A stretch of 35,821 bases of DNA from an uncultured Olsenella sp. (GTDB lineage: Bacteria > Actinomycetota > Coriobacteriia > Coriobacteriales > Atopobiaceae). This document shows positions 4,166-7,230 of the stretch, piece after piece. The stretch is from NCBI GenBank assembly GCA_900314495.1, contig OMVJ01000025.1:1-35821 (forward strand), given 5' to 3'. Every line of letters starts with the position of its first letter. Positions within the stretch are counted from its first letter, which is position 1. Below the pieces are notes generated by a model that was not told the DNA's origin, made no database searches, and saw only the letters and a list, made by a program, of their open reading frames with translations. The translations under genes were made by a program, and so were the position numbers.

Positions 4166-4810
4166 CTACTTGAGGGAGACGCAGTCCGCGAGCTCGGCCA
4201 CCGCTTCGTCCTGGCCCCAGGGGCCATACACCGTGACGTGCCAGCCCGGGGCGGCGATGACGTCCCCAAGCGGTATGGCGGAGAACTCCCCCTGGACGTC
4301 GTAGTTCTCGTTGAAGACCGTGATGCCGTAGACGCCAGAGGCGTAGTCCTCCTGCGTTGGGGCGGCGGTGGGGTCGTCGGAATCCACGCGGGCGATGTGC
4401 ACGGTGCAGCCCAGGCCCGTGCCGTCGTCACGCGTGACGAGCTCCGCCCCCTCGTCCCAGGCCTTGTAGTGGCCGGTCCAGCTGCTGGGCAGGACGACGG
4501 CGTAGTAGGGCGTGTCTATTATGTTGCGGCTGACGTCGTAGGTGATCTGCGCGGCGGCGGGTTCCGCGGTGGGGGAGGGTGCGGCGGAGCTTCCGGCCTG
4601 TGCGGCAGAGCCAGCAGAGCTACCGGCCTCCGCAGAGCTGCCGGCGTCTGCGGCGCTGCCGGCCGAGGACGCGGCAGACCCGGCTGTCGTGGCCTGCTGG
4701 GCGGATGACCCGCCGGCTGCTGCGGTTCCCTGGGAATTGCAGGCCACGAGCCCGGGGGACAGGGCCAGTGCGAGTGAGAGCGCGAGTGCGGTTCTGCGTG
4801 CGTACTTCAT
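4166..4810 (-). CDS. Secreted lipoprotein with Ser/Ala/Gly linker
   Basis: Predicted surface lipoprotein of 214 residues. I chose the ATG at 4810 over a longer frame because it has a GGAG site 7 bp upstream and opens directly into a signal peptide: basic start MKYARR, hydrophobic core, then lipobox L-V-A-C with the modified Cys at 24. Residues 25-85 are a low-complexity Ser/Ala/Gly/Thr linker with repeated AGSSA units, typical of a wall-spanning tether. Residues 88-214 look like a small folded domain with Cys135 and Cys210, which could form a disulphide. The function of that domain is not recognised. It lies 88 bp downstream of the phosphatase-EIIA-like gene on the same strand, so they may be cotranscribed. 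It converges with the 2567 gene with only 24 bp between the two stops and no clear terminator. Confidence 0.85.
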   Translation of the reverse strand: MKYARRTALALSLALALSPGLVACNSQGTAAAGGSSAQQATTAGSAASSAGSAADAGSSAEAGSSAGSAAQAGSSAAPSPTAEPAAAQITYDVSRNIIDTPYYAVVLPSSWTGHYKAWDEGAELVTRDDGTGLGCTVHIARVDSDDPTAAPTQEDYASGVYGITVFNENYDVQGEFSAIPLGDVIAAPGWHVTVYGPWGQDEAVAELADCVSLK

Positions 4811-4898
4811 GGGGTGCTCCAATCTGCTGCGTTCGGGGCTTGGTGCCGGGGCGTCTGCCTGGTTCTTGGTGTCTGTACTTCGGAGCTTACCATCGGGC

Positions 4899-6338
4899 CT
4901 ACCACGAGACGGCGGCAATGGCGTCGCCGGCGCTGATCTCTTTGCCGCGTTCGGCAAAGCGGACGTGGCTCATCTCTGATGCGTTGGTTATCTCAACCGT
5001 GACCACGGTCGCGAGGGCACGAACCTCCGGCTTGGTGGCATCCCACGAGATGAGGGGCATGCCGCGCCTGATGCTGTCGTTCTGCCAGGCGTGCTGCCTG
5101 AAGCCGTCGCCGTGGTATGCCGTGGGATTCTCCCCAATGGAGATGACGAGCTCCATCCCGTCCTGCGTGAGAAGGCCAATGGCGTTGTGGCTGGGAATCT
5201 GCGCCGTCACGCGGCAGGTGGCGGGGGCGTAGACCGTGTGGCCTGTCGGCGCCAGCCGTATGCGGGCGGACCCGCCTTCCGTCCCCGGCAGGTGGTGGGA
5301 CAGGACCACGCCCGGCACTGGCGCGAAGAGCTTGCCCATCTCGGCCTCCGGCACATCGAGGGTGATGTACTCATGGTCGTGGAAGGAGCGGTCGTGCATG
5401 CCCTCGTCCACGCGGTCCGTCAGGTCGCGCGTGCGCTGGGCGTAGTAGTACAGGTCCGCGATCATCTTGTCGGGGTTGTGGTACGTGCTCAGGTAGTAGG
5501 CGCGCTTCTGGTCCGCCTCCGTGGAGGAGTCGTTGAGCAGGTCCACGCTGAAGGCTGGCTCGGGTTGCTTGCCCGTGAGCCGCAGGCGGACGCGGGCCAG
5601 CTCGGAGTCGGTGACGCCACACTCCTCCAGGTAGTGCTGGAAGCTGCCGTAGGTGGAGATGAGGCGGTCGTGCGCGACGGAGATGGCATCTATGCGCATG
5701 GCAAGGTCCTCGCGCACGTGGTGCTGCGTGCCCGCGCCGAAGATGGCGGCGTTGACCTCCGGAATGTAGCCGAAGGAGTAGGCGTAGTCGGCAATGAGCT
5801 GCTTGCGCTCAACTCCAACCAGGCCCAGCAGCAGCATGGAGACTATGCCCGTGCGGTCGCTGCCCGCACCGCAGTGGAAGAGGGTGCAGCTGTCGAGCGG
5901 CTCCGCGGCCAAGAAGGAGAAGATGGCGCGCACGGCCGCCTTGTTGGAGAGCATCTTGAGGTAGCCCTCGGCCAGGTAGCCATCGGAGCTGCCGGGGCGC
6001 TCCAGCAGGGCCGCGGTCATGTCGTAGTCATAGAGCGGGACGTTCAGGTAATGCACGTCCAGGAGCTGGGCCAGGCGTTCCGGGCTGCCTGCGACCTCAT
6101 CGGTTCCGCGCAGGTCAAGCACGCTGCGCACGCCGTAGCCCCAGAGTTCCCCCGCATCCTTCTTGCTGATGTTGGCCGTGGTGCCGGAGCGGATGAAGCG
6201 GTGGTTGAGCGTGCGGCCGCTTGGCGTCTCGAAGCCGCCGAGCTCGCGCACGTTCATGCCCGATGCGATGTCAATCTCCCCCGTCGCAAAGCCGCGTCGC
6301 GGCCCGTAGCGAAAGAGGAGGTCGCGCCAGAAGCTCAT
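4899..6338 (-). CDS. Tyrosine phosphatase fused to a EIIA-Glc-like domain lacking both active-site histidines
   Basis: 479 residues, RBS GGGAGGG 5 bp before the ATG. Residues 20-256 match the bacterial Tyr/Ser phosphatase family (Y_phosphatase3 type): NVRELGG at 29-35, LDLRGTDE at 74-81, and the P-loop HCGAGSDRTG at 155-164 with nucleophile Cys156 and Arg162, so this half should be active. Residues 260-325 are a linker region. Residues 335-479 align by eye with the PTS glucose IIA (Crr) fold: LFAPVPG, then RLAPTGHTVYAPA, then NAIGLLTQDGMELVISIG, then DGF and GMPLISWD. In EIIA-Glc the phosphorylated His lies in LFVHFG and a second His in NHAF. Here the matching positions are Ser400 and Asn385, so the domain cannot carry the phosphate. 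It may be a sensor or scaffold. No signal peptide, so cytoplasmic. Confidence 0.85.
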   Translation of the reverse strand: MSFWRDLLFRYGPRRGFATGEIDIASGMNVRELGGFETPSGRTLNHRFIRSGTTANISKKDAGELWGYGVRSVLDLRGTDEVAGSPERLAQLLDVHYLNVPLYDYDMTAALLERPGSSDGYLAEGYLKMLSNKAAVRAIFSFLAAEPLDSCTLFHCGAGSDRTGIVSMLLLGLVGVERKQLIADYAYSFGYIPEVNAAIFGAGTQHHVREDLAMRIDAISVAHDRLISTYGSFQHYLEECGVTDSELARVRLRLTGKQPEPAFSVDLLNDSSTEADQKRAYYLSTYHNPDKMIADLYYYAQRTRDLTDRVDEGMHDRSFHDHEYITLDVPEAEMGKLFAPVPGVVLSHHLPGTEGGSARIRLAPTGHTVYAPATCRVTAQIPSHNAIGLLTQDGMELVISIGENPTAYHGDGFRQHAWQNDSIRRGMPLISWDATKPEVRALATVVTVEITNASEMSHVRFAERGKEISAGDAIAAVSW

Positions 6339-6539: not shown

Positions 6540-6609
6540 TCTGTCGAGATGGGATTTGGCCCTGCGGCCAAGTTGCCCAAGGGCGGCCCGTTGGAGGAGG
6601 CGGACAGGG

Positions 6610-7230
6610 ATGCAGAAGACAACTGGCGGAAAGACGAGGAACCGCAACGCGGAGCGGTCGGTTCGGCTGCTGGAATCGGCCTTCTTGGAGCTCTTGGCCG
6701 AGAAGCCCTACGAGAAGATCACGGTGACCGACGTGACGGCACGTGCCGACCTCAACCGCGGGACGTTCTATGCCCACTTCAAGAACATGGACGACCTCAT
6801 GAACACGGCGGTGGACACGCTCACGGACACCCTGTCGAACCTGCTGGTCCAGGTGATGGACCCCTCCTGCATAGAGAACCCCATGCCGGTGCTGGAGCAG
6901 ACGGGCAACTTCATCAACGCGAACCGCGCCCTGCTGCAGAAGCTCACGGGCACGAGCAGCCTGGGACCCCTCACCGTCGCCATTGTTGGCAAGACCAGGG
7001 AGCGGCTGCGCGACTTCCTCAACGAGGAGTATGGCGAGCGCGCGCTCACCGTCTTGGAGCATGCGGACTTCATCTTCGCGGGAGTGCTCTGGGCCCAGTA
7101 CAGCTGGCTGACGGGCGAGTACGGCGCGAGGGACATTCACGAGGTGAACGAGGAGCTCTGCAAGATGATCCAGGGGGTAGGGTCAAGCGTCAGGAGGAGG
7201 CCTGGCGGCGAGGCTGGTACGGCGGAGTAA
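6610..7230 (+). CDS. TetR/AcrR-family transcriptional regulator
   Basis: 206-residue one-component regulator, probably a repressor. The ATG at 6610 is chosen over a longer frame because it has AGGAGG about 8 bp upstream and begins the usual short basic leader (MQKTTGGKTRNR). Residues 15-60 carry the TetR DNA-binding domain: LLESAFLELLAEKPYEKITV, TDVTARADLNRGTFYAHFKN, the last segment being the recognition helix and the typical FYxHFK signature. Residues 65-190 are the variable helical ligand-binding domain; no specific ligand can be named. The extended N-terminal helix, with AFLELLAEKPYEKITVTDV, resembles the DhaS/RcdA-like branch. The gene is divergent from the phosphatase-EIIA-like gene, so that gene and the regulator itself are the obvious targets. 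No terminator with a T-run is seen on the plus strand. Confidence 0.9.
   Translation: MQKTTGGKTRNRNAERSVRLLESAFLELLAEKPYEKITVTDVTARADLNRGTFYAHFKNMDDLMNTAVDTLTDTLSNLLVQVMDPSCIENPMPVLEQTGNFINANRALLQKLTGTSSLGPLTVAIVGKTRERLRDFLNEEYGERALTVLEHADFIFAGVLWAQYSWLTGEYGARDIHEVNEELCKMIQGVGSSVRRRPGGEAGTAE

Follow-up and report, generated by a model that had tools for sequence, protein, structure and literature searches.

The locus and the phosphatase half

The window, that is the whole stretch of 35,821 nucleotides of an uncultured Olsenella sp. analysed here, harbors on its reverse strand a gene for a protein composed of two unlike halves. The open reading frame has exact boundaries and starts with ATG, and a purine-rich run lies immediately 5′ of this start codon. 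The gene and its main parts are:

4899..6338, (-) strand: whole gene, 479 aa fusion of a PF13350 phosphatase and an EIIA-Glc-like domain
5574..6272, (-) strand: PF13350 (Y_phosphatase3), residues 23-255, Pfam E 2.3e-45
5847..5876, (-) strand: P-loop HCGAGSDRTG, residues 155-164, with Cys156, Asp161 and Arg162 intact
5334..5498, (-) strand: helical leader, residues 281-335, from the alignment
4902..5339, (-) strand: EIIA-Glc-like core, residues 334-479, from Pfam PF00358 and the structural match to 1f3g

The PF13350 match of the fusion protein reached 155.9 bits compared with a curated Pfam cut-off of 22.2, and with the full-length structure model the top Foldseek matches of this half were the C. 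difficile PTP 8dhj and M. tuberculosis PtpB (1ywf). The catalytic CX5R motif is present together with the loop aspartate, and the intact phosphatase loop named in a preliminary description of this DNA was found at exactly the residues given there (Cys156 and Arg162). The fusion protein thus shares the domain and the catalytic Cys-Asp-Arg with the atypical lipid phosphatases M. tuberculosis PtpB and Listeria LipA, but differs from them in the P-loop. The signature of these enzymes is HCXXGKDR, the lysine of which has been tied to substrate binding (PMC3091653). At this position of PtpB the fusion protein carries Ser160 and so lacks the lysine that defines the group; serine is found here in all seven fused or adjacent phosphatases described below, and Met, Ile or Lys in the other paralogs. 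Since the signature lysine is missing, phosphoinositide activity should not be assumed.

Directly downstream, and on the same strand, lies a lipoprotein-like gene (window 4166-4957, (-) strand) with no evident link to the fusion. A TetR-type regulator gene (window 6556-7230, (+) strand) is located divergently to it.

Fold of the C-terminal half

Residues 362-455 match PF00358 (PTS_EIIA_1) with an E-value of 1.6e-15 and 57.4 bits, against a curated Pfam cut-off of 27.2. In the full-length AlphaFold model, built from 11 sequences, the phosphatase was good, residues 283-383 were unusable and the part thereafter was weak. A domain-only model of residues 281-479, based on 7 aligned sequences, had a mean pLDDT of 78.7 and about 90 across most of the core. 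With this model, Foldseek returned EIIA-Glc structures only at E < 0.001, and VIA-align superimposed it on E. coli EIIA-Glc (1f3g) over 139 residues with a Z of 19.7 and an rmsd of 1.8; the next-best fold class, the M23 peptidases, reached a Z of 9.3. As modelled, the C-terminal half is an EIIA-Glc fold. This agrees with the preliminary description, which had proposed the fold and listed NAIGL, ELVISIG and GDGF as retained motifs: all three are present in the sequence, and the predicted structure is not an unrelated one. The helical leader is conserved along with the EIIA-like domain, stand-alone copies included, and not along with the phosphatase.

Loss of the phosphorelay site and new conserved residues

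EIIA-Glc signals by means of its phosphorylation state. The positions compared here are His75, His90, Asp94 and Val96 in the numbering of the E. coli protein. In a phmmer alignment to a Vibrio EIIA (3our), both active-site histidines face Asn385 and Ser400, which confirms the replacements reported before, and the conserved aspartate that follows faces Asn404. The family counts given below refer to the 12 members, the window copy included, that we call pseudo-EIIA:

5184..5186, (-) strand: Asn385 (AAC), EIIA-Glc His75 position; N in 11/12, H in 1/12 of the family
5139..5141, (-) strand: Ser400 (TCC), position of the phospho-histidine His90; T5, A3, V3, S1 in the family
5127..5129, (-) strand: Asn404, Asp94 position; D in 0/12 of the family and in 28/29 controls
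5367..5378, (-) strand: DHEY motif, residues 321-324, with no change at D, H or Y in 12/12
5199..5216, (-) strand: CRVTAQ, residues 375-380, of which R, T and Q are invariant in the family
5076..5102, (-) strand: family signature FRQHAWQND, residues 413-421; FRQ..WQND invariant

Both active-site histidines are kept in 29/29 genuine EIIA-Glc controls, and the His90 equivalent is missing in every member of the family. The preliminary description had suggested a look at the conservation of the Ser/Asn pair, and only half of it stood: asparagine is general, with a single exception, whereas serine is restricted to the window copy and replaced by Ala, Val or Thr in its relatives (Thr in all five stand-alone copies). 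As the serine is not conserved, the pair itself is no family signature; what is conserved is the loss of phosphotransfer. The sole member with a histidine at the His75 position is the copy at L047:11807-13297 (genome G038), which also lacks the glycine two residues past the His90 position.

The docking face is altered as well. The Val96 position is occupied by V or I in 29/29 genuine EIIA and by E, Q, T, A or H, mostly E or Q, in the pseudo-EIIA family, which makes ordinary binding of HPr or EIIB by these domains doubtful. Because the active-site replacements are a conserved trait of the whole clade and not of one sequence, we infer that pseudo-EIIA is unable to accept phosphate from HPr. Compared with EIIA-Glc/Crr of E. 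coli, the glycines and prolines of the family are kept along with the fold, but His90, His75 and Asp94 are all replaced, the Val96 position is mostly polar, and the family alignment adds the helical leader as well as new invariant residues, namely D-H-x-Y within this leader, RxTxQ and FRQxxWQND.

Family, phylogeny and selection

The searches covered overlapping genome samples at three ranks, with 397 genomes for the order, 398 for the class and 396 for the phylum. They detected 12 pseudo-EIIA members with 278-350 bits in 11 genomes, all of one Coriobacteriales family, and none outside that family among these order, class and phylum genomes, where the next scores were at most 128 bits. The 29 matches at or below 128 bits that were examined in detail, and which serve as controls here, were all genuine EIIA. 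In a phylogenetic tree the 12 pseudo-EIIA domains form one clade with a support of 100/100, separate from the 29 genuine domains. Three pairs of EIIA-like domains gave dN/dS values of 0.02 (with dS near saturation), 0.24 and 0.33, showing that the domain is under purifying selection; phosphatase pairs gave 0.06 and 0.20. Several of the actinobacteria carrying pseudo-EIIA come from rumen samples.

The search for the same fusion in other genomes, also suggested before, was successful. Pseudo-EIIA is fused to the phosphatase in five cases (window, G052, G036, G041 and G038), directly follows a phosphatase gene with a gap of at most 9 bp in two (G127 and G128) and stands alone in five. The fusion is thus naturally split into two adjoining genes at L049:5056-6815 and L048:1324-3000. 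Two of the 12 members belong to the genome of the window itself; the second, at L054:6992-7699 (G000:C36), is a stand-alone copy behind an RpiR-type gene.

PF13350-type phosphatases are widespread without an EIIA-like domain. The fused and adjacent ones form one clade (support 100/99) and share the loop HCG[AG]GSDRTG, where the other paralogs have HCAAGMDRTG, HCAAGIDRTG or a Lys form. Their closest relatives, at 250 bits or more, occur in 10 of the 11 genomes with pseudo-EIIA and in no other genome of the family; the eleventh, G053, has a stand-alone pseudo-EIIA only and no phosphatase at this score.

A search of an open library of papers found none on a fusion of a phosphatase with an EIIA-Glc-like domain. 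A plasmid or phage origin of the fusion was considered and rejected, since no plasmid or phage record covers 80% of the protein. Phage records labelled as Listeria phage or faecal phage (H10-H16) contain homologs of the phosphatase half with about 27-30% identity; these records are short and unannotated and may be host DNA.

Gene neighbourhoods

In G036, G038 and G041 the fusion is located just upstream, and on the same strand, of a mannose-family PTS operon encoding EIIA, EIIB, EIIC and EIID, and the phosphatase/pseudo-EIIA pair of G128 adjoins the same operon type. In G052 the fusion has a divergent neighbour that encodes a glucoside EIIBCA, the EIIA of which is intact. The pair of G127 sits on a contig of 4.4 kb. 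A mannose-family PTS is therefore found beside 4/7 and a glucoside PTS beside 1/7 of the fused or adjacent loci. The PTS link of the phosphatase that had been suggested for this gene is supported by the gene context at these five loci and not at the window locus, which has no PTS neighbour. The matching PTS operon of the window's own genome (C24) has no pseudo-EIIA copy beside it, and both absences count against the coupling to sugar uptake proposed below. The same operon occurs without the fusion in G039 and G040, which makes the fusion accessory to the operon, and no phosphatase of the PF13350-type family was found within 5 kb, up to contig ends, of 16 further PTS loci. Moreover, G036, G038 and G041 represent one clade, in which the adjacency may have been inherited once. 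The association with the PTS is thus real but accessory, and in part a single inherited event.

Other genes recur around these loci. An RpiR-type gene directly precedes 4/5 stand-alone pseudo-EIIA copies; the HTH_6 match of the one such protein examined was 28.0 bits, just below the cut-off of 28.3. In G041, G127 and G128 the fusion or gene pair has a divergent DeoC aldolase gene as its neighbour, and the pairs of G127 and G128 are also followed by a gene for a Cof-type HAD hydrolase. The genes for DeoC-type aldolases at L046:7586-8332, L049:4263-5033 and L048:3168-3875 occupy this divergent position in two separate clades, and Cof-type HADs recur by these phosphatases and by mannose-family PTS (L049:6825-7628, L127:5983-6819 and L050:6704-7624). 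Inducer exclusion of the MalK type was set aside for a stand-alone locus, where the ABC neighbour resembles, by eye, the iron-type Fbp and is encoded on the opposite strand.

Proposed function and alternative explanations

Judged from its relatives, pseudo-EIIA is a conserved module, commonly located near sugar-uptake genes, rather than a damaged gene. We consider it about an even bet (roughly 50%) that its role is that of a module for docking or regulation outside the phosphorelay, which couples a competent phosphatase of the PTP fold to sugar uptake and sugar-phosphate control. Starting from the observed fold, lost relay site, selection, co-inheritance and neighbourhoods, we infer a partner, a sense of regulation and a substrate. 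The C-terminal half would be a pseudo-EIIA-Glc that has retained the fold and abandoned the phosphorelay and, not being phosphorylatable, could act as a permanently dephosphorylated EIIA-Glc or as a scaffold. There is precedent for regulation through binding, by which dephospho-EIIA-Glc acts on LacY and MalK (PMC10710835). The new conserved face (DHxY, RxTxQ and FRQxxWQND) would grip the partner and, given the altered docking face, a new partner or a ligand is likelier than HPr or EIIB bound in their customary way. Binding would then place or regulate the phosphatase, whose substrate might be a sugar-phosphate or a phosphoprotein connected with the neighbouring PTS. Somewhat more tentatively, the whole family may consist of lineage-specific adaptors derived from EIIA-Glc that read sugar status independently of phosphorylation and are connected with a dedicated phosphatase in some cases and an RpiR-type regulator in others.

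Instead of docking to a protein, the domain might bind a sugar-phosphate in its old pocket or on the new face and thereby switch the phosphatase or, where it stands alone, the RpiR-type regulator. The polar residues that are newly invariant in the family (D, H, Y, R, T, Q, R, Q, W, Q, N and D) do resemble a binding site, and DeoC aldolase, Cof-type HAD and RpiR-type genes, all related to sugar-phosphates, lie nearby. However, EIIA-Glc is known as a fold for binding proteins and not metabolites, and the residue of the pseudo-active site itself varies between A, S, T and V. We regard such a sensor as rather unlikely. Still less probable is a role as a mere aid to folding or dimerisation that was kept by chance after the fusion. 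The missing active-site residues and the frequent occurrence of the phosphatase without the domain would fit this idea, but the purifying selection, the existence of stand-alone copies as independent genes and the conservation of the new motifs and the helical leader speak against it.

Two further explanations concern the active site itself. Ser400 could replace His90 as phospho-acceptor, for instance for a Ser kinase, in line with the serine of the window copy and the threonine of the stand-alone copies; this is very improbable and was rejected, as the serine is not conserved, Ala or Val occupy the position in 6/12 members, fused copies among them, and the equivalents of Asp94 and His75 are gone as well. 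A lone mutant, a pseudogene or a sequencing artefact, for which nothing but the odd active site could be advanced, has a negligible probability and is refuted by a clade of 12 members from 11 genomes with dN/dS well under 1. The preliminary description had named relatives with both histidines as the sign of such a mutant, and there are none. Of these readings, the docking or regulatory module is the best supported.

Comparison with known systems

As the fold is kept and three active-site residues are lost throughout the clade, an EIIA-Glc module appears to be usable without the phosphorelay, and the fused, adjacent and stand-alone forms represent a natural set for probing the role of this fold minus phosphorylation. 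The finding also points to a putative, uncharacterised phosphatase in the sugar control of these actinobacteria.

Fusion of an EIIA-Glc-like domain to a non-PTS protein is known from LacS (PMC10710835). The domain of LacS is phosphorylated by HPr, in contrast to the protein of the window, which has no such site and a phosphatase as its partner. Control of a hydrolase by an EIIA-Glc-type protein, as proposed here for the fusion, has been described for the phosphodiesterase PdeS of Vibrio cholerae, to which EIIA-Glc binds in a phosphorylation-dependent manner (PMC6877527); there the proteins are separate, whereas in the window they are fused and the phosphorylation site is absent. A more distant comparison is offered by the M23-like fold, to which pseudo-EIIA shows a remote similarity (Z 8-9). 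In the degenerate LytM regulators EnvC and SpoIIQ this catalytic fold has turned into a binding module; these proteins belong to another family and are non-cytoplasmic, and the likeness is one of analogy only.
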